Positions 28,719-43,461 of a DNA stretch of 43,461 nucleotides are shown one piece after another. Under the pieces are notes generated by a model that was given only the letters and a program-made list of their open reading frames with translations, did not search any database and had not been told where the DNA came from. Source of the DNA: Candidatus Sulfotelmatobacter sp. (GTDB lineage Bacteria > Eisenbacteria > RBG-16-71-46). The stretch spans positions 1-43,461 of the forward strand of contig DATKAB010000051.1 in assembly GCA_035498555.1 (NCBI GenBank), written 5' to 3'. The translations under genes and the position numbers were made by a program. Positions within the stretch are counted from its first letter, which is position 1. Each line of letters begins with the position of its first letter.

Positions 28719-30539
28719 ATGGACAAGCGCGGCATCGCGGCGGTGGTTCTGTGCGTGGCGTTCCTCATTCTCTACCCGCAGATCCTGAAGCTGATCGGGC
28801 TCGACAAGTATCTGTATCCGCCGAAGTCGTCGCCGACGCGCGCCACTTCGACCGCGGTCGACTCGAGCCGGGTCGCGGCGGCCGCTCGGCCGCTTCCGCC
28901 CGCCGCCACGCCCGGCGCTGCTGCGACCGGCGCGAGCAATCCGGGCGCCGCGACCCCGCCCTCGCTCGGCGCGACGCCACTGGTCGCCCGCTCGGGCAGC
29001 CTCGAGCGGAGCTACGCGATCGAGACGCCGCTCTATCGCGCCACGTTCTCGGATCGCGGCGCGCGACTGGTGGCGGTCGAGCTCAAGAACTACGTGACCG
29101 CTCACGGCGTGGGCGTCAGCAAGGCGGCGCGCGAGGAGGCGCCGCACGTGGCGCTGGGCGGGGGGCCGTCCTTCGGGCTCGACCTCGGCTCGGGCGCGTC
29201 GCTTCGCTCGCTCGCCGAGCTCGACTACGCGGTCAGCGAGAGCCTCGACGCTGCCGGCGACGTGCGCACGATGAGCTTCACCGCGCGCGACAGCTCGGGA
29301 GTCGAGGTGCGCCAGACCTGGCGTGTGCGCCCGGAAGACTACGCCCTCGATCTCCAGGTGACGATCCGCGGCGTGCCCGACGCGATGCGGATTTCCGACT
29401 ACACGCTCACCACCCGCTCGTGGCCGCTGCTCACCGAAGCGAATCAGCTGGCCGACGAGCGCGCGCTGCGCGCCTCGAGCCTGGTGGGCACCAACATCCA
29501 TCGCGACCATCCCGGCCAGCTCAACAAGGGCCCGAAGGACTACGACGGCAACGTGGTGTGGTCGGCGGTGCAGACCCGCTACTTCGTCGGCGCGGTCGCG
29601 CTGGTGAGTGGGCCCGCACGGGGCTCGAACGCCAGCACCAGCAAGCGCCCGCTCAGCAGCGAGGAGGTGGCGGCCCTCGGTCCCGACGCCAAACCCGAGC
29701 AGGACGTGGTTCAGAGTGGGCTGGTGATGGCTCTGCCTTCGAGCGAGAGCCCGGTCCATCGCTTCGTTGTCTACTTCGGTCCGCTCGAGTACCAGCGGCT
29801 TGCGAAGCTGCATCTCCAGCTCGAGCGCGTGGTGGACATGGGCTGGACGTGGCTGCTGCCCTTCAGCACCACGCTGCTCAGCCTGATGAAGTGGATCTAC
29901 GGAGTGCTGCGCAACTACGGCCTCGCCATCGTGGCGCTGGCGACGCTGGTACGCGTGGTGCTGCATCCGCTCAACGTCACCAGCATTAAGAGCATGCGCG
30001 CCATGCAGCGGCTGCAGCCGGAGCTCGCGCGGATCAAGGAGAAATACAAGCACGATCCGCAGGCGTTCAACGCCGCCACCATGGCGCTCTACAAGGAGAA
30101 CAAGGTGAATCCGGCCAGTGGCTGCCTGCCGATGTTCGTGCAGATGCCGCTGTTCTTCGCGTTGTATCAGGTGTTGTACAACTCCATCGAACTGCGCCGT
30201 GCGCCGTTCGTGGCGTGGATGCAGGATCTGTCGGCCCCCGACCTGGCGTTCACCATCGGCCCGCTCCCGGTCCGCCTGCTGCCGCTGCTGATGGCGGGCT
30301 CGGGACTGCTTCAGCAGTCGGTGACGCCGACCGATCCGACCCAGCGCCCCACCATGTACATGATGAACGTGGTGATGCTGGTGTTCTTCTACAACCTCCC
30401 TTCGGGACTGGTGCTCTACTGGACCGTCATGAACCTGCTCACCGCCCTCCAGCAATGGATGGTGCTGAGGCAGGACGGCGGGGCCGTGGTGCCGGCCGTG
30501 CAGGCCGCGCCGGTCACGGCTCGCGGGCGGCGCAAGTGA
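28719..30539 (+). CDS. yidC: Membrane protein insertase YidC
   Basis: A 606-aa insertase of the Gram-negative type. MDKRGIAAVVLCVAFLILYP is the N-terminal membrane segment. An Ala/Pro/Thr-rich linker (~40-105) precedes the periplasmic P1 domain (~105-365). The five-helix insertase core covers ~385-590: NYGLAIVALATLVRVVLHPL, then SIKSMRAMQRLQPELARIKE with the following KYKHDPQ as the cytosolic hairpin, GCLPMFVQMPLFFALYQVLY, and FYNLPSGLVLYWTVMNLLT. The P1 domain supports a diderm envelope. The insertase core carries a conserved Arg (LVRVVLHP). It is coupled to yidD upstream; jag follows after 180 bases. Confidence 0.95.
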   Translation: MDKRGIAAVVLCVAFLILYPQILKLIGLDKYLYPPKSSPTRATSTAVDSSRVAAAARPLPPAATPGAAATGASNPGAATPPSLGATPLVARSGSLERSYAIETPLYRATFSDRGARLVAVELKNYVTAHGVGVSKAAREEAPHVALGGGPSFGLDLGSGASLRSLAELDYAVSESLDAAGDVRTMSFTARDSSGVEVRQTWRVRPEDYALDLQVTIRGVPDAMRISDYTLTTRSWPLLTEANQLADERALRASSLVGTNIHRDHPGQLNKGPKDYDGNVVWSAVQTRYFVGAVALVSGPARGSNASTSKRPLSSEEVAALGPDAKPEQDVVQSGLVMALPSSESPVHRFVVYFGPLEYQRLAKLHLQLERVVDMGWTWLLPFSTTLLSLMKWIYGVLRNYGLAIVALATLVRVVLHPLNVTSIKSMRAMQRLQPELARIKEKYKHDPQAFNAATMALYKENKVNPASGCLPMFVQMPLFFALYQVLYNSIELRRAPFVAWMQDLSAPDLAFTIGPLPVRLLPLLMAGSGLLQQSVTPTDPTQRPTMYMMNVVMLVFFYNLPSGLVLYWTVMNLLTALQQWMVLRQDGGAVVPAVQAAPVTARGRRK

Positions 30540-30719: not shown

Positions 30720-32075
30720 ATGGGGCCATCAGGCTCGGTTTTCGAAGGTAAGACGCTGGACGAAGCGGTTCGCAAAGGGCTCGAGTCCCTGGGACTCAGC
30801 CGCGCCGAGGCCATGATCTCGGTGATCGAAGAAGGTTCGGGTGGGTTTCTCGGGTTCGGCTCGCGCCCCTACAAGGTGCGCGTGATGCCGCGGCCGGGCG
30901 GCGCGATCCGCGAGCCCGAGTATCGCCAGGACGACGACCGGGGACGCTCGCGGGGACGCGGGCGGGAACGCGGAGGCCGCGACCGCGGTGGACGCGGCGG
31001 CCGGGGCGAGCGCGAGGGGCGCGGCCCGCGCGGTGGCCGCGAGGGCGGTGTCGGTCGCGGCGAACGTGTTGGTCGCGACGAACGCCGCCCGCCGATGGCG
31101 GCCTCGGGTGAACGGCGCGGGCGCGGCGACGAGCGGCGGCGTCCCGACGACCGGCCGCGCGGTGAAGAACGCGTGGGTGCCGAAGACCGTGGCCGCCGAG
31201 AAGAGCGTGGACGCGGCGAGGATCGCGGCCGCGGGCCCGACCGTTCACGCGAGGCGCGTGAAGATCGCCCGCGCGAGGACCGCATGCACGAGGCGCCGCG
31301 CCCGGTCAGCAACGGGCACGACGCGCACGCCGAGCCGCCGGCGATCGAGATGGAAGCGCGCGGCGGCGAGGAGATCGGCGAGCGCGGCGATCGCGAGGGC
31401 GGCGGCCGCCGCCGTCGTCGCCGTGGCCGTCGCGGAGATTCCGGCCGCGGCGAGCGTGGCGATCGCGGCATGCCGATGGAGCGGGGCGAAGGCCATGGCG
31501 AAGAGCGCGGGCCGGCCGTGATGGCGCCGCGCGCCACCGACGCCGGCGGCGCCGACGTGGTCGCGGCTCCCGGCACCCCGGCGCTTTCCAACGACGCGCT
31601 GGCCGCCGAGGGCAAACGCTGGACCGAGCAGCTCCTGACCGCGATGGGCTTCGAGGCCACCGTGCGCGCCAGCGCCGAGGGCGATCGCGTGAACGTGAGC
31701 GCGGCCGTCGCGAGCGACGAGAAACTATTGACCGGTGAAAAGGGCGAGGTGCGGCAGGCCCTGCAGCAGTTGCTCAACCGCATGATCAACCGCGGCGAGA
31801 CCTCGCGCTACCACCTGCAGCTCGAGATCAACGACTTCTGGGAGAAGCGCGAGAACGAGCTGCGCGGGCTCGCCCAGCGGCTGGCCGAGGAGGCTCTGTC
31901 GCGGAACGGCGAGGTGATCACCGACTATCTCAACGCCCAGGAGCGCCGCATCATTCATGTGACGCTGCGGGAAGATTCGCGCGTCAAGACCTACGCGCTC
32001 GGGACCGGGCACATCAAACGCCTGGCCGTGGCGCCCGCGGGCCACGAGGGCGGCGGAGAAGAGGTCGAGGACTAA
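30720..32075 (+). CDS. jag: RNA-binding protein Jag/KhpB with long Arg/Gly-rich linker
   Basis: A 451-aa protein. Residues 1-56 are the Jag-N domain (FEGKTLDEAVRKGLESLGLS, GSGGFLGFGSRPYKVRV). Residues ~296-358 resemble the KH domain and ~360-440 the R3H domain (LAQRLAEEALSRNGEVITDY then NAQERRIIHVTL). The KH G-x-x-G loop reads LTGEKGEV. Between them lies a ~230-residue low-complexity linker (58-290) made mainly of Arg, Gly, Glu and Asp, including an eight-Arg stretch. Usual Jag proteins are 200-300 aa, so the extra length is the linker. AGAGG precedes the ATG by about 7 bases. A strong terminator follows. Confidence 0.92.
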   Translation: MGPSGSVFEGKTLDEAVRKGLESLGLSRAEAMISVIEEGSGGFLGFGSRPYKVRVMPRPGGAIREPEYRQDDDRGRSRGRGRERGGRDRGGRGGRGEREGRGPRGGREGGVGRGERVGRDERRPPMAASGERRGRGDERRRPDDRPRGEERVGAEDRGRREERGRGEDRGRGPDRSREAREDRPREDRMHEAPRPVSNGHDAHAEPPAIEMEARGGEEIGERGDREGGGRRRRRRGRRGDSGRGERGDRGMPMERGEGHGEERGPAVMAPRATDAGGADVVAAPGTPALSNDALAAEGKRWTEQLLTAMGFEATVRASAEGDRVNVSAAVASDEKLLTGEKGEVRQALQQLLNRMINRGETSRYHLQLEINDFWEKRENELRGLAQRLAEEALSRNGEVITDYLNAQERRIIHVTLREDSRVKTYALGTGHIKRLAVAPAGHEGGGEEVED

Positions 32076-32173: not shown

Positions 32174-32923
32174 TCATCGATAGAAGCTCTTGATCGCGCC
32201 CCAGGTCATGTTGCGGACCGGCGTCGCCGAGCACGGTGTGGTGCCCGCGGCCTGCCAGCGGAGGCAGGTGTTGGCGAGCGGGGTGGTGAGGTTCTGCTGA
32301 ATCGATCCGAATAGGTGAATAGTGTTGAGGACGATCGTGGCGGGGGTCGCGCAACCGCCGCACACGCCGGACCCGGCCGTTTTCTGTGTATCGATCGTCA
32401 CTCGGAATGCATAGTATTCCGTACCGTGATGAAGGTTTGCCGCTGTGGAGTTGAAGAAGCTCGCAAACAACTGCGCCCGGCTCGGCGACGAAAAAACTAG
32501 ATTGCCGTCGCACCATTGGAACGTCCGCCAGACGAAAGAGGCACGGGGCGTACTCCCCGGCCAAGCGTATGTGCAGCCGCCTGGCGCGGCATTGAAGTCT
32601 GCCGCGGCGTTGATCGATCCTGTTCTGCAGCCACCTGCGAAGCACATCTGCCACCAATCCGGAAGATTGGGCGCATCACTCTGCAGGTCCAGATACACAT
32701 CCATGTCGGAGAACCCGGGGAAGTCGGCGGTCAACGAAAAGGACGCCGTCATCGAGAAGCTGCCGGTGTTCGAGCCACAAGCAAAGGTCTGAACGGTCTG
32801 CGGATTGTCGGCCCAGCAGCCGTCGCCCCAGGTGAGATTCATGCCGTCGGCGTGAGAGTCCACGGCCAGGCATGTCGTTAGCGTCGACAGCACGGCGAAG
32901 AGAAGCCCAGGCCGATGGCGCAT
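32174..32923 (-). CDS. Secreted cysteine-rich protein A with C-terminal TWGAIKSFYR tag
   Basis: A 249-aa exported protein, signal peptide MRHRPGLLFAVLSTLTTCLA-VDSHA. The mature part shares a pattern with B, C and D: NLTWGDGCWADNPQTVQTFA, LPDWWQMCFAGGCRTG, GGCTYAWPGSTPR, HGTEYYAFRVTID, CGGC and finally CLRWQAAGTTPCSATPVRNM followed by TWGAIKSFYR. The cysteines recur at fixed places, consistent with disulfides outside the cytoplasm. The family was not recognised. It is the last gene of a minus-strand run C-B-A converging on jag. Its 5' end and spacer are near-copies of B's. Confidence 0.8.
   Translation of the reverse strand: MRHRPGLLFAVLSTLTTCLAVDSHADGMNLTWGDGCWADNPQTVQTFACGSNTGSFSMTASFSLTADFPGFSDMDVYLDLQSDAPNLPDWWQMCFAGGCRTGSINAAADFNAAPGGCTYAWPGSTPRASFVWRTFQWCDGNLVFSSPSRAQLFASFFNSTAANLHHGTEYYAFRVTIDTQKTAGSGVCGGCATPATIVLNTIHLFGSIQQNLTTPLANTCLRWQAAGTTPCSATPVRNMTWGAIKSFYR
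32178..32282 (-). repeat. Conserved 105-bp tag-encoding block, copy in gene A
   Basis: This stretch encodes the last ~35 residues of protein A. By direct comparison it differs from the gene C copy (33749-33853) at one base of 105, and from the gene D copy (35475-35579) at a handful. The B copy (32962-33066) is more diverged. The sequence similarity falls sharply upstream of the block. Confidence 0.8.
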
Positions 32924-32957
32924 GACATAAGCCTACATCAGTCGCGCTCGGCGCCGA

Positions 32958-33710
32958 TCATCGATAGAAGCTCTTGATCGCGCCCCAGGTCGTGTTGCGG
33001 ACCGGCGTTGCCGAGCAGGGCGTGGTGCTCGCCGCTTGCCAGCGCAGGCAGGAATTGGCGAGAGGCGTGGTGAGTTGGTCAGTGATCTCGCCGAAGAGCG
33101 AAATCTTGTTCAACACGAGGGTCGCCGGAACCAGGCACCCACCGCAGACGTTTGAGCCAGTGGTCTTTCGGGCATCGATAGTGAGGCGAAACGCGTAATA
33201 CTCTGTCCCCTGGTGGAGCGTCCCGCCTCCGCCGCTGCCAAAATCGCCGAGCCATTGCGCCCGGTTAGCCGGGGGCGCCGGAGCCGCGCCGCCACTGCAC
33301 CACTGACTTGTTCGCCAACTCATACTCACGTACGGCGTGCTGCCGGGCCACTCGTAGACACAGCCGCCGGGAGCGACATTGAAGTCCGCTGACCCACTCA
33401 ACGCTCCCGATCTACAGCCTCCTTGGTCGCAGAGTTGCCACCAATCCGGAAGGCTGGGAGAATCGCTTTGGAGGTCGACCTGTGCAAAAAAGGAAGTGAA
33501 CTGGGGCAGGTCTTGGCTGGGCATGAAGGAGGCAGTCATCGTGAAAGTGTTTGGGTTCGCGTCGCAGGCGAAGGTCTGGACGGTCTGGGGATTGTCCGCC
33601 CAGCAGCCGGAGCCCCAGGTGAGGTTCATTCCGCCGGCGTGAGAGTCCACTGCCAAGCATGCCGTTAGCGTCGACAGCACGGCGAAAAGAAGCCCAGGCC
33701 GATTGCGCAT
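32958..33710 (-). CDS. Secreted cysteine-rich protein B with C-terminal TWGAIKSFYR tag
   Basis: A 250-aa paralog of A. The signal peptide is nearly identical (MRNRPGLLFAVLSTLTACLA-VDSHA), and so are the first mature residues (GGMNLTWGSGCWADNPQTVQ). The middle differs: a Ser/Ala/Pro/Gly stretch WCSGGAAPAPPANRAQWLGD and a glycine run GSGGGG are specific to B. The family frame is kept (LPDWWQLCDQGGCRSG, GTEYYAFRLTID, VCGGC). It ends CLRWQAASTTPCSATPVRNT and TWGAIKSFYR. A 34-base spacer separates it from A, and an almost identical 34-base spacer separates C from B. No strong ribosome site is visible. It is probably cotranscribed with C and A. Confidence 0.8.
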   Translation of the reverse strand: MRNRPGLLFAVLSTLTACLAVDSHAGGMNLTWGSGCWADNPQTVQTFACDANPNTFTMTASFMPSQDLPQFTSFFAQVDLQSDSPSLPDWWQLCDQGGCRSGALSGSADFNVAPGGCVYEWPGSTPYVSMSWRTSQWCSGGAAPAPPANRAQWLGDFGSGGGGTLHQGTEYYAFRLTIDARKTTGSNVCGGCLVPATLVLNKISLFGEITDQLTTPLANSCLRWQAASTTPCSATPVRNTTWGAIKSFYR

Positions 33711-33744
33711 GACATAAGCCTACACCAGTCGCGCTCGGCGCCGA

Positions 33745-34524
33745 TCAACGATAGAAGCTCTTGATCGCGCCCCAGGTCATGTTGCGGACCGGCGTCGCCG
33801 AGCACGGCGTGGTGCCCGCGGCCTGCCAGCGGAGGCAGGTGTTGGCGAGCGGGCTGGTGATCTTGTCCTCGCCGACACCGCCGAGATCGATCTCATTCAG
33901 CACGATGGTCACAGGGACGCTGCAGCCGCCACATGCAGCGCCGCCGATGGTCTTCTGCGCGTCGATGTTCAGCCGAACAGCGTAGTACTCGGTGCCACGA
34001 TGAGCCGTCGTGTCTACGACGCCAGGAATCGAGACGGTACCGAATACTTGACCCCGGTTGGCCGCGATGACGCCCCCGCCACAGGCACCAGGAGTGCGCC
34101 AGTTCAAAGCCAAGGTCGGCGAACTGCCAGGCCAGGCAAAGGCGCAGGCGCCAACGGTCGAGTTGAAGGCGGCGGTCCCCGTCAATGCCCCATTTCGGCA
34201 ACCACCAACACTGCAGAACTGCCACCAGTCTGGCAGATTCGGTGAGTCGGCTTGCAAGTCAATCTCGAACTGAAAGATGTCGAACTGGCGGATGTCGATA
34301 CTTGGAACGAACGAAGCCGTCATCGCGAACGTGCCGACGTTCGTGTCGCAGGCGAAGGTCTGGACGGTCTGAGGATTGTCGGCCCAGCAGCCTTCGCCCC
34401 AGGTGAGGTTGATGCCGCCGCCAGCATGGGCGCCGCGAACCAGCGCGATGCCCAAGACGCAAGCCAGCAGCGCCAATGGCGGCACCCTTCCGCCCGCCAG
34501 AATCCCAGCTTTCGAGCGCCTCAT
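33745..34524 (-). CDS. Secreted cysteine-rich protein C with C-terminal TWGAIKSFYR tag
   Basis: A 259-aa paralog with its own, longer signal peptide (MRRSKAGILAGGRVPPLALL, then ACVLGIALVRGAHA). The body is closer to D than to A or B: FACDTNVGTFAMTASFVPSI, LPDWWQFCSVGGCRNGALTG, GACGGGVIAANRG and VLNEIDLGG are shared or nearly so. The last 35 residues are identical to A and D. It is the first gene of the C-B-A run and is divergent from the mnmE fragment, 86 bases away. No clear promoter hexamers were found in that gap, so the transcription start is open. Confidence 0.8.
   Translation of the reverse strand: MRRSKAGILAGGRVPPLALLACVLGIALVRGAHAGGGINLTWGEGCWADNPQTVQTFACDTNVGTFAMTASFVPSIDIRQFDIFQFEIDLQADSPNLPDWWQFCSVGGCRNGALTGTAAFNSTVGACAFAWPGSSPTLALNWRTPGACGGGVIAANRGQVFGTVSIPGVVDTTAHRGTEYYAVRLNIDAQKTIGGAACGGCSVPVTIVLNEIDLGGVGEDKITSPLANTCLRWQAAGTTPCSATPVRNMTWGAIKSFYR
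33749..33853 (-). repeat. Conserved 105-bp tag-encoding block, copy in gene C
   Basis: One mismatch to the copy in gene A (32178-32282). Identity includes codon third positions and stops abruptly upstream, where A and C encode quite different residues (SIQQNLTT against VGEDKITS). Confidence 0.8.
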
Positions 34525-34610
34525 TTACAGTTGATGATAACTCTGTAGGCTCACGGGCCACACGCCATTTCGGCCGCTTCAGATTTTCGACTCGAGCGAA
34601 ATCCCGAATC

Positions 34611-35474
34611 GTGACGGATCTGCACGACGCCATTGCCGCCATCGCCACCTCGCCCGGCGCCGCCGGGCTCGCGGTGGTGCGCCTTTCCGGGTCCTCGGCG
34701 CTTGGGATCGCGGCCAGCGTGTTTCGCGGCGGCACCGCTCTGGCCGAGGCCCCGAGCCACACGCTGCACCACGGCTGGATCGTGGACGCCGATGGGGGGC
34801 GCATCGACGAAGTCGTGGCCGCGATCTTCCGCGCGCCGCGCTCTTACACGCGCGAGGACGTGGTCGAGCTGTCGTGCCACGGCGGCCGGTTGAGCGCCGC
34901 TGGAGTGCTCGAGGCGTTGATCAGCGCCGGCGCGCGGCTCGCCCGCCCCGGCGAATTCACGCTGCGCGCGTTCCTGAACGGCCGGCTCGATCTGGCGCAG
35001 GCCGAGGCGGTGGCCGACGTGATCCAGGCCGAGACCGAAGCGGCGCGCGGCTTGGCGCTTGGGCAGCTCGTGGGCGATCTGTCGCGCCGGCTCGACGCGC
35101 TTTCGGAACGGATCGCCGACCTGCTCGCCGAAGTCGAGGCGCGCGTGGACTTCGCCGAGGACGTGGGCGGAGTCGAGATTCCGCCGCGCGCGCGCGACGA
35201 AATCGCGGTGGTGGACGCCGCGCTCGCCGCGCTGCTCGAGGGCGCCGCCTACGGCCGCGCGCTGCGCGAGGGGCTCCGGCTGCCAATCGTGGGGCGGCCC
35301 AACGTGGGCAAGTCGTCGCTGTTCAACGCGCTGATCGGCGAAGAGCGCGCGATCGTCACGCCCGAAGCCGGCACCACGCGCGATCGGGTGAGCGAGCCGC
35401 TCGAGATCCGCGGCGTGCGCGTGCTGATTTCTGACACGGCGGGGCTCCGCACCGAGGCCGGCGGCGGCGCTTAG
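34611..35474 (+). pseudogene. mnmE: Truncated 5' copy of mnmE
   Basis: 287 codons that match residues ~6-284 of the intact MnmE encoded at 39220-40620. It keeps the N-terminal folate-binding/dimerisation domain, part of the helical domain and the G1-G3 part of the G domain ([24 protein letters not shown]). It lacks G4 (NKxD), the rest of the G domain and the C-terminal C-x-G-K. It cannot be a working tRNA-modification GTPase. The frame ends three codons past the break at a TAG formed by the reverse complement of gene D's stop region, so the two opposite-strand genes overlap at their ends. The frame is otherwise intact with mostly synonymous changes. The GTG start is only inferred. Confidence 0.85.
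34635..35466 (+). repeat. 832-bp direct repeat, copy 1 (mnmE 5' part)
   Basis: This stretch aligns without gaps to 39241-40072 at a constant offset of 4606. I counted 31 mismatches in 832 positions by eye (about 96 percent identity). Similarity begins about six codons into the gene and ends at 35466, four bases before the stop codon of gene D. Confidence 0.88.
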
Positions 35475-36202
35475 CGGTAGAAGCTCTTGATCGCGCCCCA
35501 AGTCATGTTGCGCACCGGCGTCGCCGAGCACGGCGTGGTGCCTGCGGCCTGCCAGCGGAGGCAGGTGTTGGCGAGCGGAGTGGTAAGTCTGTCCACGCTG
35601 ATCCCACCGAGGTCGATCTCGTTGAGCACAAGTGTGACAGGCACGTTGCACCCACCACATGCGCTGCCACCGCTGGACTTCTGCGCGTCTATGTTCAGGC
35701 GGAACGCGTAGTACTCGGTCCCACGATGGATCGTCGGATATCCATCGCTCGCGACGGAACCGCGTAGTTTGGCCCGGTTCGCGGCGAGGTTGATGCCCCC
35801 GCCACAGGCGCCTGCGGTGAACCAGTCCATGGTCAGGCTTGGCGACCTCCCAGGCCATGCGTAGGCGCAGCCCCCGGGTGCCGAGGTGAAGTCGGCTGTA
35901 CCGGTCAATGAACCCATACGGCATCCGTCAGCGCTGCAGAATTGCCACCAATTCGGGAGGGTCGGAATATCTGCCTGCACGTCGATCTCAAAGTCGAGGG
36001 CAAAGAACATCGGAAGGTCGAAATCAGGAGCGAAAGACGCGGTCATGGGGAATGCGCCGACGTTCGTGTCGCAGGCGAAGGTCACCAGGCTCTGGGGGTT
36101 GTCGACCCAGCACCCGTTACCCCAGGCGAAATTGATGCCGCCGGCGGATGCCGAGCCGGCCCAGACGGCCAAGACCGCGGTGGGGAGAAGGGCGCAGCGC
36201 AT
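35471..36202 (-). CDS. Secreted cysteine-rich protein D with C-terminal TWGAIKSFYR tag
   Basis: A 243-aa paralog of A-C. The signal peptide is MRCALLPTAVLAVWAGSASA. The body keeps the family frame (WGNGCWVDNPQSLVTFACDT, LPNWWQFCSADGCRMGSLTG, GGCAYAWPGRSP, RGTEYYAFRLNID, CGGC) and is closest to C. The last 35 residues are identical to A and C. The ATG at 36202 has GGAGG six bases upstream; a GTG at 36214 is also in frame but would put the ribosome site inside the gene. A good promoter lies at 36251-36280. The stop lies directly against the broken end of the mnmE fragment. Confidence 0.82.
   Translation of the reverse strand: MRCALLPTAVLAVWAGSASAGGINFAWGNGCWVDNPQSLVTFACDTNVGAFPMTASFAPDFDLPMFFALDFEIDVQADIPTLPNWWQFCSADGCRMGSLTGTADFTSAPGGCAYAWPGRSPSLTMDWFTAGACGGGINLAANRAKLRGSVASDGYPTIHRGTEYYAFRLNIDAQKSSGGSACGGCNVPVTLVLNEIDLGGISVDRLTTPLANTCLRWQAAGTTPCSATPVRNMTWGAIKSFYR
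35475..35579 (-). repeat. Conserved 105-bp tag-encoding block, copy in gene D
   Basis: About five mismatches to the gene C copy in 105 bases. Its outer edge is within ten bases of the point where the mnmE fragment breaks off, which makes this block the likely recombination edge. Confidence 0.75.
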
Positions 36203-36250
36203 TGTGGCCTCCACGTGAACGAGCCGGTGACCAAGTTTCGTCCGGGGACA

Positions 36251-36473: not shown

Positions 36474-39185
36474 ATGCGGTCTACCTGCGAAGAACTATTG
36501 CGGCTTCTATGCGTCCCACGCGTCCTTTTTCGCGCCTGGACCTTGCACGCCATTAGGCTTGCGACCGCGAGTTCGCTTCTGGCGGTGGGCCCCGCATGGG
36601 CCACGGACCACTGCTTCGACATCCCCGACACCTGCGACCGGGTGACGATTCATCCTTTATGCAGCAACCCGGCCCAAAAGTATTGCTGTCGACCATTTCC
36701 CCCTGCCGCGGCAGGCGACAATGTGCCCGGTCGGCGCCCGGGCTTCAAAGCGAAGGACTTCTCGCTTTTCAAATGGAATGGGCTCTATCACCTAGTCTAC
36801 ATCCTCCACAATTCGGACGATCTTGGCACCTCGTCCGAGACGCGTTTCGGTCACGACATCTCTAAGGACCTCTACCACTGGGACTCACTCCCGCCCATAC
36901 TTCCCGTCCGGGCAGACAAATGGGATAACACTAATATGTGGGCGCCCTTCGTCATTCAGCGCGATAGCACCTTCAACCTCTTCTATACCGGCGTGTCCAC
37001 AAGCGGCAAGCAATCGATTGGGCTTGCGACTTCCTCCGATCTCCTCGACTGGCAGCGGAGGGATACTCCAATCTTTTCATGCGCGAACGCTCCTTGGACG
37101 TGGTGTGACTCGTTGAACGGATATGGGCGCGACTTTAGGGACCCGTTCGTTATGCGTGATCCGGATAGTCTTGGGCGCTGGATTATGTACTATTCGACCC
37201 GAGTGCCTGCCGTTGGCGATTCCACGACAGTGCCCGGGGTCGCCCTCTCTTCCGGGGATTTCACTGCATGGCGTGATCATGGGTCGCTGTGGACGCGCAA
37301 CACAAATTGGTGGGATAACAACCGCCAGCTCGAATCGTCCCACCTGTTTGGGCACAACAACAAGTGGTTTATCGCCTATACGACAAATTCTGGCCAGCCA
37401 TTGGAATTCCAGACGGGCAACGACCCGAGCGACTCGACAGCATGGAGCTTTTGGGACCGCATCGGGAATCTGGATTGTCTTGATACTAATTCCGAGTTCG
37501 CCTCCGAGTATCTTAGCGACCCAAGTGTTGGGGGTTCGGGGCGGGAGTACTATTGCGCCGTCAGCTTCGGCTCGATCCTGATCTGGCAGATGCGATGGTG
37601 GGGCGGCAATTCCTGGGGTGGCGATTCCACGTACTTTTCACTCGAAACTCCAGCCAACGTCATCGCGCCTTCGGCCGTGACCGACCTGTCGGCCGAGATG
37701 GGCAAGACGACGGCAGTCCTGACTTGGACTGCCCCCGGCGCGGACACAACCACGGGGACGGCGGCGTTCTACGATCTACGCTACTCCACCGCGCCGATCA
37801 CAGGGGCGAATTTCAGCAGCGCCATGCGGATCACGACGGCGGACCCAGATCCGGCCGGGACACTGGAATGCATTGGACTCTCGTCGCTCTCGTCGTGCAC
37901 GAGTTACTACTTCGCCATCAAGACCTCGGACGCCGACAGCAATAGCTCGGCGATCAGCAATGTCGCGTCCGGTGAAACGCTGTGCAGCGGACACACCGAG
38001 TACCTTTGCGGCTTCGACGATCTGATGGCTCAGGGCGGGGGTGGCAGCGGCATGGCGGTCGAGAATGGGATCCTCGACCTGGCGACGACGAGCGCAGCAG
38101 CCACCGACATCTATGCTCTGAAGGCGAATGACGGCCCGCAGGTGGACTCGCTGGGAATCCGTCTCAGCCTCGGCGGCGGGAACTCGGTGGCGTTGGACGC
38201 CGCCCTGGTCGCGCTGGTGCCGCACGCTGACACTGTCCAAGCCTTTGTCGCGAGTCGGAGCCACGTGGTGGTCGGCAAACCGGTGGCGGTCGCCCAGATT
38301 ACGGACAGCACGGGCGCGAGCATCTCGCCGACTGTCTCGGCAGCGGGGAGTACGAGGGCGGTGTCTGCGGGAACACTTTGGGACATTACCCTGTCTTCAG
38401 GCGCGTCGGCGGGCAGCCGACAGGCGCTGCTTATCGAACTGGCCGGTGGCGGAGCAGACGACGCGGCAGGGGGCGGTGGCGTACAGGTCCTGCTGCCCAA
38501 TGGATCGGGGGGCTGGTCCAGCAGCGGCCTGATTCAACCGCGGCGGGGGCTTGACGCGTGCGTTCTCGACTCGGTCACCGCCAGCCACGTGCGCCTGCGT
38601 TTCAACCATGACTACCTGGTCGGCAACGTCGAACGAATCCCTGCCCCACAGCAAAGCTCACTAACATGGATCGCGCCGGGCAGCGCCATTTCCGCGTCGT
38701 CGGGATCGGTTGCGGGGGCGCTCTCGGCGATCGACGGCAGCGAGGCGACGCTGAGCGCCGGGGGCTCGATTACGCTGCGATATTCGACCCCGACCTCGGG
38801 CACGCAGCCTGCGCGCCAGGCGTTTCTCCTGCTGAGAGGCCGGCGGGTCGCTCCGCAGGGGTCGTCCATGATGTCCACTCGAGGGGACCAGCCTTCGCGG
38901 CCAGCGGCGCCGTTCGAGCTCCACCCAACCTATCCAAACCCATTCAGCTCCACGACCACGATCGGGCTTGCGCTGCCTACCGCGACCAGCGTGACGCTCG
39001 AGATCTATGACGCGAGCGGACGCCGGGTGCGGACGCTGCTCGCCGGAACGATGAGCGCTGGGTTCCACACGACGATCTGGGATCGCCGTGACGACCGGGG
39101 TGGTCTTGTCCCCGCCGGCGTCTATCTCTATCGGATCCGGGCGGGCGAGAATCAGTCCGAGGAAAAGGCCGTAGTTCTTCGTTGA
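36474..39185 (+). CDS. Secreted five-bladed propeller (GH43/GH32-like) protein with FN3 and type IX-style sorting domain
   Basis: A 903-aa exported protein. The signal segment ends near GPAWA (residue ~43). Residues ~85-390 resemble a GH43/GH32/GH130-type propeller: KAKDFSLFKWNGLYHLVYIL, NMWAPFVIQRDSTFNLFYTG, RDFRDPFVMRDPDSLGRWIM and LESSHLFGHNNKWFIAYTT. These carry candidate acidic residues (Asp of KDF, Asp of RDP, Glu of LESS). Residues ~395-490 look like a fibronectin type III domain. A Gly/Ser/Ala-rich region follows, and the end (HPTYPNPFSSTTTIGLALPT ... PAGVYLYRIRAGENQSEEKA) is a FlgD-Ig-like / type IX sorting domain. The first ~1.2 kb is visibly less GC-rich than neighbours, a sign of transfer. 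AAAGGAGAG precedes the ATG. The substrate is unknown. Confidence 0.78.
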   Translation: MRSTCEELLRLLCVPRVLFRAWTLHAIRLATASSLLAVGPAWATDHCFDIPDTCDRVTIHPLCSNPAQKYCCRPFPPAAAGDNVPGRRPGFKAKDFSLFKWNGLYHLVYILHNSDDLGTSSETRFGHDISKDLYHWDSLPPILPVRADKWDNTNMWAPFVIQRDSTFNLFYTGVSTSGKQSIGLATSSDLLDWQRRDTPIFSCANAPWTWCDSLNGYGRDFRDPFVMRDPDSLGRWIMYYSTRVPAVGDSTTVPGVALSSGDFTAWRDHGSLWTRNTNWWDNNRQLESSHLFGHNNKWFIAYTTNSGQPLEFQTGNDPSDSTAWSFWDRIGNLDCLDTNSEFASEYLSDPSVGGSGREYYCAVSFGSILIWQMRWWGGNSWGGDSTYFSLETPANVIAPSAVTDLSAEMGKTTAVLTWTAPGADTTTGTAAFYDLRYSTAPITGANFSSAMRITTADPDPAGTLECIGLSSLSSCTSYYFAIKTSDADSNSSAISNVASGETLCSGHTEYLCGFDDLMAQGGGGSGMAVENGILDLATTSAAATDIYALKANDGPQVDSLGIRLSLGGGNSVALDAALVALVPHADTVQAFVASRSHVVVGKPVAVAQITDSTGASISPTVSAAGSTRAVSAGTLWDITLSSGASAGSRQALLIELAGGGADDAAGGGGVQVLLPNGSGGWSSSGLIQPRRGLDACVLDSVTASHVRLRFNHDYLVGNVERIPAPQQSSLTWIAPGSAISASSGSVAGALSAIDGSEATLSAGGSITLRYSTPTSGTQPARQAFLLLRGRRVAPQGSSMMSTRGDQPSRPAAPFELHPTYPNPFSSTTTIGLALPTATSVTLEIYDASGRRVRTLLAGTMSAGFHTTIWDRRDDRGGLVPAGVYLYRIRAGENQSEEKAVVLR

Positions 39186-39219: not shown

Positions 39220-40620
39220 ATGACCCTCTCGGACACCATCGCCGCCATCGCCACCTCGCCCGGCGCCGCCGGGCTCGCGGTGGTGCGCCTTTCCGGGCCC
39301 TCGGCGCTTGGGATCGCGGCCAGCGTGTTTCGCGGCGGCACCGCTCTGGCCGAGGCCAGGAGCCACACGCTGCACCACGGCTGGATCGTGGGCGCCGATG
39401 GCGGGCGCATCGACGAAGTGGTGGCCGCGATCTTCCGCGCGCCGCGCTCCTACACGCGCGAGGACGTGGTCGAGCTGTCGTGCCACGGCGGGCGGTTGAG
39501 CGCCGCTGGAGTGCTCGAGGCGTTGATCGCCGCCGGCGCGCGGCTCGCCCGCCCCGGCGAGTTCACGCTGCGCGCGTTCCTGAACGGCCGGCTCGATCTG
39601 GCGCAGGCCGAGGCGGTGGCCGACGTGATCCACGCGGAGACCGAAGCGGCGCGCGGCTTGGCGCTCGGCCAGCTCGCGGGCGATCTGTCGCGCCGGCTCG
39701 AGGCGCTTTCGGAACGGATCGCCGATCTGCTCGCCGAAGTCGAGGCGCGCGTGGATTTCGCCGAGGACGTGGGCGGAGTCGAGATTCCGCCGCGCGCGCG
39801 CGACGACATCGCGGTGGTGGATGCCGCGCTCGCCGCGCTGCTCGAGGGGGCCGCCTACGGTCGCGCGCTGCGCGAGGGGCTGCGGCTGCCGATCGTGGGG
39901 CGGCCCAACGTCGGCAAGTCGTCGCTGTTCAACGCGCTGATCGGTGAAGAGCGCGCAATCGTGACGCCCGAAGCCGGCACCACGCGCGATCGCGTGAGCG
40001 AGCCGCTCGAGATCCGCGGCGTGCGCGTGCTGATTTCTGACACGGCGGGGCTCCGCGCCGAGGCCGGCGGCGTGGAGGCGATCGGCATCGCGCGTGCGCG
40101 CGAGACGCTCGCCGAGAGTCCGCTCGCGGTGTGGGTGGTCGACGCGTCCGAGCCGCTCGAGCGCGAGGATCGCGAGGTGGCGGCGCTGCTTTCCGCCGAA
40201 CCTGCGCGCGCGGCGCCGCCGCGCCGGCTGGTGGTAGCGCTCAACAAATCCGATCGCGGCTCGCGGCTCGTCGCTGCCGATGTCGCGCCGCTCTTGAATG
40301 GCGCCGAACATCGCGCGGTGTCGGTCTCCGCGCTGAGTGGCGCAGGAGTCGGGGAGCTGCGCGATGTGCTGGGCACGTATCTCAGCGACTCGCGGTCTTC
40401 TGCCCACCCGGCGGTCTCGAATCCGCGACATGCCGAGGCGCTTTCGCGCGCTCGTGCCGCGCTCACACGCGCGTCGAGCGCCGCCTTCGATGGTGCTCCG
40501 GGCGAGATCCTGGCGCTCGAGCTGCGCGAGAGTCTCGCCGCGATCGGCGAAGTCACCGGCCGCTCGATCGGCCACGATCTGCTCGACCGGATCTTCAGCC
40601 GATTCTGCGTGGGGAAATGA
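39220..40620 (+). CDS. mnmE: tRNA uridine-5-carboxymethylaminomethyl(34) GTPase MnmE
   Basis: A 466-aa GTPase. With MnmG it places the carboxymethylaminomethyl (or aminomethyl) group on U34 of certain tRNAs. The N-terminal folate-binding domain covers ~1-115 ([52 protein letters not shown]). The G domain has GRPNVGKSS (G1, ~227), TTRD (G2), DTAG (G3, ~274) and NKSD (G4). The C-terminus ends [10 protein letters not shown], the C-x-G-K that is essential in the family. The length is normal. It starts 34 bases after the 903-aa protein, and its stop overlaps the mnmG start (ATGA). Its first ~284 codons are duplicated at 34611-35474. Confidence 0.97.
39241..40072 (+). repeat. 832-bp direct repeat, copy 2 (inside intact mnmE)
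   Basis: Counterpart of 34635-35466, offset 4606, no gaps. Of the 31 differences about nine change an amino acid (for example Pro/Ser, Gly/Asp, His/Gln, Ala/Val), so the copies diverged mostly at synonymous sites or have been homogenised. Confidence 0.88.
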
Positions 40621-42649: not shown

Positions 42650-43461
42650 ATGGGGCGCACACCCGGCAATCGCGGACGAAGTCCACGCGCACCGCGCCAG
42701 AGAGCGCCTGGCGTCGGTGGCCCGCGCGCGACCGGCGCGCCCGCGGGACGCCGGCGCTCGGATGGCCCTCGACCGAGTCGCTGGCCCGCTGCAGGCCCAC
42801 GTTCGGGCGCTCCGCCTTCGGGCGCTCCGCCTTCGGGCCGATCGCGCTCGGGCGGCCCACGCTCGGGCGACCCGCGCTCGGGCCGATCGCGCGGTCCTGG
42901 CTCGGGTGGCCCGCCCGCCGCTCGTTCGCGTGCCCCGGGCTCGCGTCCGCCCTCGCGCACCTCTCGCGCGGGCGGTCCTCGCCCCGGCGAAGCGCGATCG
43001 CGCGACTCTCGCCCGGCCCCGTCGCGCCCGGGGAAATCGCGATTCCCAGCCTCGACCGCGCGCTCGGCGCCCGCCCGCCGACCGACGCCGCGCGAAGGCC
43101 CGGCCTACGATGAGCAGGCCCAGCGCTGGCCTGACGTGGGCGGGATTCTCGCGCGCCAGCCGTGGGCAGCGATTGAGCGCTTCGTTCCCGCGGCAGCCGA
43201 CGGCCGCGTCGAGCGTCTGGTCCAGCTCCGGCGGTTCGTCGAGCTGCTGCTGCAATGGAATCGCCGTGTTTCCAATCTGATCTCGAAGAATGACGAGTCG
43301 CGCGTGGTCGAGGCGCATCTCGTGCCATCGCTCGAGCCGGCCGAGTGGATCGCTTCGCACCGGCTCTCGCGCTGGCTGGATTTCGGATCGGGCGGCGGCT
43401 TCCCCGCGATTCCGCTCGCGCTGTGCGGCGTGGGCGAGCACTGGGATCTCGTGGAATCGCG
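42650..43461 (+). CDS. rsmG: 16S rRNA (guanine(527)-N7)-methyltransferase RsmG, 3' end beyond the window, with long N-terminal extension
   Basis: 270 codons are visible without a stop. Residues ~160-270 are RsmG: RRFVELLLQWNRRVSNLISK, HLVPSLEP and LDFGSGGGFPAIPLAL. The last is the SAM-binding G-x-G-x-G-x-P loop, with Ala where the family usually has Gly. The family methylates N7 of G527 in 16S rRNA. Residues 1-~150 are a low-complexity tail rich in Arg, Ser, Gly and Pro (SGAPPSGAPPSGRSRSGG), absent from typical RsmG of ~210-240 aa. The ATG at 42650 has AGGGTG five bases upstream. In-frame GTG codons near 43135 could give a shorter protein, so translation of the tail is not certain. Position after mnmG is the classical one. 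Confidence 0.85.
   Translation, partial: MGRTPGNRGRSPRAPRQRAPGVGGPRATGAPAGRRRSDGPRPSRWPAAGPRSGAPPSGAPPSGRSRSGGPRSGDPRSGRSRGPGSGGPPAARSRAPGSRPPSRTSRAGGPRPGEARSRDSRPAPSRPGKSRFPASTARSAPARRPTPREGPAYDEQAQRWPDVGGILARQPWAAIERFVPAAADGRVERLVQLRRFVELLLQWNRRVSNLISKNDESRVVEAHLVPSLEPAEWIASHRLSRWLDFGSGGGFPAIPLALCGVGEHWDLVES

Follow-up and report, generated by a model that had tools for sequence, protein, structure and literature searches.

The jag/khpB locus

The DNA analyzed here, referred to below as the window, is a stretch of 43,461 nucleotides that corresponds to contig C51 of genome G000, an assembly of 3.8 Mb in 219 contigs. The features that matter for the following are:

28719..30539 (+), yidC, membrane insertase (PF02096 200 bits, PF14849; the ATG start at 28719 is assumed)
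30720..32075 (+), jag/khpB coding sequence, 451 aa (domain profiles, NCBIfam Jag_EloR, Foldseek)
30741..30884 (+), Jag_N domain, residues 8-55 (PF14804, 64.2 bits, cut-off 25)
30891..31589 (+), R/G/E/D linker, predicted disordered, residues 58-290 (composition, shuffles, AlphaFold, family conservation)
30921..31274 (+), first linker half, RG/DRG/RE-rich, residues 68-185, 83% R+G+E+D (composition)
31407..31433 (+), basic box RRRRRRGRR, residues 230-238 (same form in 16/16 complete family Jags and in RNase III)
31632..31820 (+), divergent KH domain with a GEKG loop, residues 305-367 (PF13083, 18.9 bits; secondary structure; match to the KhpB fold)
31857..32030 (+), R3H domain, residues 380-437 (PF01424)
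42650..43461 (+), 5' part of rsmG, cut by the window end, with a ~150-residue R/S/G/P-rich N-terminal extension (GidB match, RG maximum, relatives)

KhpB is a widespread RNA-binding regulator, the spacer of which gets little notice. The domains, the NCBIfam match, the neighboring yidC gene, the AlphaFold model and its Foldseek matches indicate that the window protein is the KhpB/Jag/EloR of a Candidatus Eisenbacteria bacterium, with a linker that is predicted to be disordered. The yidC gene is located directly upstream of jag (YidC domains at 28719-30536 in the profile search of the window), and the gene for the partner protein KhpA is found in the same genome (G000:C49:7930-8145; 68.6 bits, and 66.9 bits as protein). 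The R3H domain scores 27.5 bits against a cut-off of 26.8 (31.1 bits in the genome search); the KH region remains under the Pfam cut-off of 32.1, with GEKG present at the GxxG loop. The NCBIfam model Jag_EloR (NF041568) covers the protein end to end with 129.6 bits, which is under the curated cut-off of 145; since this match runs across a long insert, the protein was assigned to the KhpB family by its domains and synteny and not by the cut-off. In the AlphaFold model (14 sequences in the alignment, mean pLDDT 57.6), Jag_N, most of the KH elements and R3H are drawn, and the last KH strand is absent. The top four Foldseek matches of this model, the only PDB matches with E <= 0.001, are 9lrg and 9lri, which are Thermus KhpB/EloR, and two chains of 3gku, a Clostridium Jag structure, with loose superpositions (rmsd 9.5-12.1).

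Downstream of jag, between this gene and mnmE, four paralogous ORFs are found on the minus strand in the region 32174-36214 (32177-32923, 32961-33710, 33748-34524 and 35474-36214). Their products of ~250 aa are 54-68% identical, have signal-peptide-like N-termini, give no Pfam match, and have in common the C-terminal sequence CSATPVRNxTWGAIKSFYR. Amid these genes lies a truncated second copy of mnmE (34476-35474, +), which over 841 bp is 96% identical to the complete gene (39220-40620, +) and stops within the GTPase domain, as if the insertion had duplicated part of mnmE. The same insertion includes a gene for a 903 aa protein (36474-39185, +) that combines GH32/GH43-like domains with a C-terminal domain of the FlgD/Por type.

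Composition and predicted disorder of the linker

The boundaries that the initial annotation gave to the linker agree with residues 58-290. Over this whole stretch R (26.6%), G (22.3%), E (13.7%) and D (8.2%) account together for 71% of the residues, with Lys being absent, so that the description of the linker as made almost only of these four amino acids is accurate for the first half but overstated for the whole. The net charge is +11, and the encoding DNA is 79.5% GC. There are 27 RG dipeptides, a number that was reached in none of 5000 shuffles (mean 13.9), and 5 DRG triplets as compared to 1.1 in the shuffles (P 0.004), whereas the 5 RGG triplets are not enriched over the shuffled linkers (3.0, P 0.16). 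Thus, the clustering of RG exceeds what the composition gives, but this does not extend to RGG; the supposed run of eight arginines turned out to consist of six, the longest run present, followed by Gly and two more Arg. In the AlphaFold model, coil extends over all of 58-290, with block mean pLDDT of 36-52 from residue 61 to 290.

For comparison within the genome, we used a sample of 803 gene calls, made with our own codon model on 1,014,294 bases (1.01 Mb, 26.6% of the genome) in 81 stretches including the window. The highest 40-aa RG window in this sample, 0.80, is that of the window Jag linker; apart from it, 0.5 is reached only by a Rho paralog (0.75), a secreted-looking protein (0.53) and one frame (0.50) the start of which was probably called early. 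Genome-wide composition as the cause of the linker was rejected, since only 4 of these 803 proteins, all encoded by the same 67% GC genome, reach this value. Used as a protein query against its own genome, the arm matched itself only.

The distribution of charge bears on the possibility that a mixed-charge RG arm of this kind drives RNA-dependent phase separation of KhpB, making it a condensate scaffold by analogy with the Rho factor of Bacteroides. There, coacervation with RNA is reported to be governed by short conserved motifs, some basic and some acidic, of a disordered region rich in K/E (PMC13269538), and the Rho paralog of the present genome is also R/G-armed. However, charge-block patterning was not found in the window linker, where the charge measure is 0.68 of the shuffled value, most shuffles being less evenly mixed; of 16 family copies, 11 give a measure lower than the shuffled mean, and none goes beyond the shuffles. 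Because the charges are mixed rather than blocky, a simple charge-block condensate is not favored, and we consider a scaffold of this type improbable.

Persistence of the arm among relatives

Jag_N was found in 40 of the 59 genomes searched, and only one of the 19 same-family relatives is not among them; with the window added to the other 18, this gives 19 same-family copies, 16 of which are complete through KH. Across these 16, the linker is 166-363 aa long, and the shares of R, G and E are 17-27%, 10-22% and 10-17%, respectively; the net charge falls to +3 in some relatives. The contigs of G003, G006 and G009 end inside the linker, so this region is hard to assemble; for G003 and G006, the missing distal half, box included, lies on another contig. 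The initial annotation had named, as the finding that would speak against its reading, a linker missing or poor in RG in near relatives, with signs of local slippage in this assembly. Slippage was rejected, given that every one of the 16 complete copies in the family has the arm and that the repeats in the window linker are only short and imperfect.

In the family alignment, the linker is mostly unalignable, the exceptions being one basic box and, behind Jag_N, a stretch that resembles RGGRGGR. A RRRRRRGRRGGRGRRR-like box, with RRRRRRGRRGGRGRRRG as the fullest form, is present in all 16 complete Jags, with columns R232-R235, R237 and R243 invariant, while the same kind of box arises in 0.6-3.4% of the shuffled linkers of each. 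In the closest pair (G017/G015), dN/dS is 0.06 for Jag_N, 0.27 for the linker and 0.21 for KH-R3H, which indicates that the linker is under purifying selection in this pair; four more distant pairs gave linker values of 0.28-0.71 on unreliable alignments.

Outside the family, the arm varies in length and position. Seven Jags of family f5 have linkers of 64-71 aa, two f8 Jags (218-219 aa) have no arm at all, those of f6 and f10 carry an R/G arm after R3H, and those of f9 carry such an arm besides the linker. The Jag of G020 (L013), which belongs to a sister family of the same order, has an R/G arm after KH and no R3H-type motif in a pattern scan of the forward frames. Five Jags of Hydrogenedentota/Hydrogenedentes, another phylum, have an R/G arm after R3H, one of them with PRRRRRSRRGGRGRG, so this device is not confined to Eisenbacteria. 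For Jags of other phyla, a crude RG-window measure was applied to 30 of 63 loci (L049-L111); 10 of 11 Lachnospiraceae-titled frames remain below RG 0.35, and in the exception, L059, an arm that follows R3H has a value of 0.53. The idea that the arm offsets the charge of KH-R3H was discarded: this region carries -2 to -8 in the family and is net negative in the families with short linkers as well, so there is no clean relation between the two.

These comparisons also bear on the simplest view of the linker, namely, that it is a passive hydrophilic tether between the partner site on Jag_N and KH-R3H, with a composition that follows from high G+C codons and slippage and with only its length being of importance. 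The length of the KhpB spacer is reported to be highly variable in Firmicutes (PMC12542702), as it is here; the DNA of the linker is GC-rich and carries short imperfect repeats of 6-18 bp, and its charges are well mixed, all as would be expected of a spacer. Against this stand the rarity of such RG values in proteins of the same genome, the purifying selection on the linker in the closest pair, the retention in 16/16 copies of a box the form of which recurs in RNase III, and the R/G arms that other families of the class carry after R3H instead of, or besides, the linker. The latter imply that the composition is kept where the spacer role is not, and we find it unlikely that the linker is a mere tether.

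A basic box common to KhpB and RNase III

A DNA pattern for RRRRGRRGGR was found at 21 places, distributed over 17 of 58 genomes; its reversed version matched nowhere in the same 58. Within the family there are 18 places in 14 of the 20 genomes, 13 of them in jag (11 assigned by coordinates, 2 by translation) and 5 in RNase III genes; hence, the exact codon pattern of the box turned up in no family gene other than these two, and six of the 20 genomes have no exact match. The places outside the family (G030, G031, G040), which fall in frames without assignment, were set aside. The RNase III of the window's genome (TIGR02191, 247 bits) is among those with the pattern. A box HMM, when run against this genome, gave three weak matches, with E 0.41 (RNase III), 2.9 (a 29-aa frame) and 5.65 (a frame without assignment), the own, shorter box of Jag not being among the matches at E <= 10; the case for a shared box is built on the DNA pattern and on the reading of the sequences.

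All 18 copies of RNase III found in the family were read, and each is extended by an Arg/Gly-rich stretch at the N-terminus and by an arm at the C-terminus. Fifteen of the tails are complete (204-355 aa), and the other three stop at a contig end; 17 of the 18 show a basic run rich in Arg and Gly, the remaining tail being a cut one. The box is degenerate in the RNase III of several genomes, e.g., G010, G012, G017 and G018. Family f5 has its own form of the box, RRRRRRGGRGRR, in 6 of 8 RNase III, with the other two (G030, G037) not parsed. RNase III was recognized in 38 genomes (41 loci), the tails of 10 genomes were not parsed, and G026, G029 and G032 gave no motif; the tail counts leave out G028 (a frame of 382 aa), G029 (544) and the f5 genomes G030 and G037. 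The RNase III of G020 has no tail, and eight other frames of 255-302 aa leave little room for one.

Two further features of these tails were noted. In f5 (e.g., L169, L170, L171, L176), 4 of 6 end in PWAASxL after the RRRRRRGGRGRR box, and 8 of the 15 complete tails of the window's family, f1 (e.g., L178, L180, L189), contain a second conserved stretch, ~EEVGRPEGP, often followed by DPF or DPY.

Judged by title and the start of the abstract, none of the literature matches listed deals with R/G arms of either Jag/KhpB or RNase III. The box form common to the Jag spacer and RNase III ties a little-understood RNA-binding protein to the cleavage of double-stranded RNA.

A terminal motif on RNase III, KhpA and KhpB

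All 15 complete RNase III tails of the family end in [FYW]GR[RK] followed by basic residues. A similar [WFY]GR-basic motif is found near the N-terminus of the family KhpA, which has an N-terminal extension (one example starts with MSDENRPPVVGQWGRPLRKRSRGP), in every one of the 17 readable copies, an 18th being masked by N; it is missing from the three KhpA read outside the family (G020, G031, G040). In Jag, the C-terminus is a short acidic tail in the window's family, but [WF]GRR..RR in the sister families f9 and f10 (5/5 complete copies). Among the 803 sampled proteins, only KhpA and the ribosomal protein uS9 have [WFY]GR-basic near a terminus. The tail of uS9 contacts rRNA.

In pneumococcus, KhpA is reported to bind the KH domain of KhpB (PMC6403258), and, by analogy, KhpA and KhpB probably make one complex here as well. 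The Jag ends in f9/f10 and the KhpA N-termini in the window's family would then mean that, within the class, one motif is placed on one or the other subunit of one complex.

Two motifs that recur in this way could also serve to dock proteins. The box and [WFY]GR-basic would bind one common protein, be it a hub, a ribosomal protein or an enzyme, and thereby hold KhpA/KhpB and RNase III together, in the manner of degradosome linear motifs. The occurrence of the same box form in two unrelated proteins is consistent with docking, as are the regularity of the terminal motif (15/15 RNase III, 17/17 KhpA, 5/5 f9/f10 Jags) and its placement on either subunit of a complex known from pneumococcus (PMC6403258). 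However, both motifs are mostly basic, which is the usual mark of nucleic-acid contact, and the uS9 tail shows the same [WFY]GR-basic pattern; docking to a protein therefore appears rather doubtful to us.

Arms on other RNA factors

The Rho paralog of the window's genome (G000:C8:13829-15004, -; L203/L289; 392 aa) is matched by the Rho models in the motor domain only, has no match to Pfam Rho_RNA_bind (CSD, cold-shock), and scores below the cut-off of the NCBIfam model for the short-form Rho paralog (NF041509). Its first ~100 residues are G/R-rich and disordered-looking, with RRRRRR. Orthologs are found in 19 of the 20 family genomes, none at a match to the CSD model. The canonical Rho of the same genome is encoded by a separate gene and is unarmed.

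In the rsmG frame of the window, the GidB match begins at residue 192 and the RG maximum is 0.50. In the 13 same-family copies of RsmG that were read, the N-terminal extension is net basic, with +3 to +16 in <=65 residues, whereas 12 of the 14 copies from outside the family lie between -1 and +2, the exceptions being G034 (+5) and G040 (+8); a fixed offset served to place the start of the fold, and these values may include residues that precede the true start. The values derive from 30 loci of 40 genomes with a match, of which 27 were parsed and three (G015, G017 and G042, two of them same-family) were dropped.

A scan of the window's own genome for other armed RNA factors, as the initial annotation had proposed, did find some: two of six S1-domain proteins, PNPase and an S1-like protein, are armed, and one DEAD helicase among eight helicase-domain proteins has an RG-rich tail. 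RG windows of at least 0.45 occur in 3 of these 14 proteins as compared to 7 of the 803 sampled ones (Fisher p 4.5e-4). DNA helicases are counted among the 14, there is a slight overlap between the two sets, and a 0.50 window that precedes the NusA start was left uncounted. The PNPase tail (G000:C161:41255 region, L362) contains RGRDRDRDRG and ends in RGRDRDRDRGRDRDRDRGRRR; that of the S1-like protein (G000:C126:9237 region, L363) is ERG/RGG-rich. In the same genome, no arm was found on ribosomal S1, RNase R, RNase E/G, NusA or canonical Rho. Thus, the earlier suggestion that this lineage adds arms to its RNA-binding proteins holds for the sequences of Jag (16/16), RNase III (18/18), RsmG (13 read) and the Rho paralog (19/20), but not as a universal rule, the five proteins just named being bare.

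Possible role of the arms

Taken together, these data suggest that the arms are best understood as auxiliary RNA-binding arms that would help to assemble RNP particles. For the window protein, we favor, with a probability of roughly 55%, the reading that the linker is a conserved disordered RNA-contact arm with a linear motif, which would let KhpB co-assemble with armed partners. This reading is preferred because the arm and the box persist while the remaining linker diverges (16/16 against 0.6-3.4% of shuffles) and because the armed proteins, namely, Jag, RNase III, the Rho paralog, RsmG, PNPase, the S1-like protein and the DEAD helicase, are RNA factors. The predicted disorder, the composition, the conservation, the purifying selection in the closest pair and the sharing of the box and the terminal motif are direct observations; RNA binding, co-assembly and the function of the arm are what we infer.

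In such an arrangement, Jag_N would pick the protein partner and KH-R3H would pick the RNA, with the RG/DRG repeats of the linker making many weak contacts with RNA and the Arg-rich box providing one stronger contact as a short RNA-binding linear motif of the arginine-rich-motif type. The arm could thereby increase the affinity of KhpB and gather KhpB, KhpA, RNase III and other armed factors on the same structured (GC-rich) RNA, and the motifs common to KhpA-KhpB and RNase III would draw both onto the same RNAs. With acidic residues well mixed in, the linker carries a net charge of no more than +11, and some relatives only +3, so its affinity for RNA could be low. Also counting against an RNA arm are the unenriched RGG triplets, the several core RNA proteins without arms, and the six of 20 genomes without the exact pattern.

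A more far-reaching scheme, which is speculative and which we deem unlikely, can be envisaged as well. RNA processing in this Eisenbacteria family would be organized by a code of disordered basic motifs and not by a folded scaffold: the RG box (KhpB, RNase III) and the [WFY]GR-basic motif (KhpA, RNase III, sister-family KhpB) would unite KhpA-KhpB, RNase III, the CSD-less Rho paralog and further armed proteins on shared RNAs in one RNP body, and R/G arms might even have replaced folded domains, namely, the CSD of Rho and, apparently, R3H in one Jag. The placement of arms on a specific subset of RNA factors, together with the switching of a motif between KhpA and KhpB, offers a concrete way into the question of whether disordered basic motifs organize RNA metabolism in GC-rich bacteria.

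Comparison with known systems

Eukaryotic RG/RGG domains and arginine-enriched mixed-charge domains are characterized by enrichment in RG dipeptides and by a mixed Arg/Asp/Glu composition. Both traits are common to the window linker, which differs in being bacterial and in having unenriched RGG triplets. The closest counterparts by domain order are the KhpB/EloR/Jag proteins of Firmicutes and Thermus (9lrg, 9lri, 3gku), with the same succession of Jag_N, KH and R3H and a variable spacer between Jag_N and KH (PMC12542702); in the window's family, this spacer is an R/G/E-rich arm of 166-363 aa with a conserved box, and KH falls below the Pfam cut-off. The Jags of Hydrogenedentota/Hydrogenedentes (L049-L053) have R/G arms too, one with an R-rich RG box, but their richest R/G stretch follows R3H and their linker is P/R/Q/E-rich.

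Among other RNA factors, the Rho of Bacteroides thetaiotaomicron likewise has short conserved basic motifs in a charged disordered region (PMC13269538); there, however, the region is Lys/Glu-rich, is part of Rho, and is reported to control condensation in experiments (PMC13269538). The Rho of Mycobacterium and Micrococcus is similar in having a large hydrophilic insertion, located N-terminally, in a bacterial RNA factor, and in M. tuberculosis this insertion is reported to stimulate RNA binding (PMC4499133). Hence, viewed against these systems, it is ordinary that KhpB spacers vary; what is unusual here is the conserved R/G arm, the presence of its box also in RNase III, and the occurrence of arms on a subset of RNA factors.
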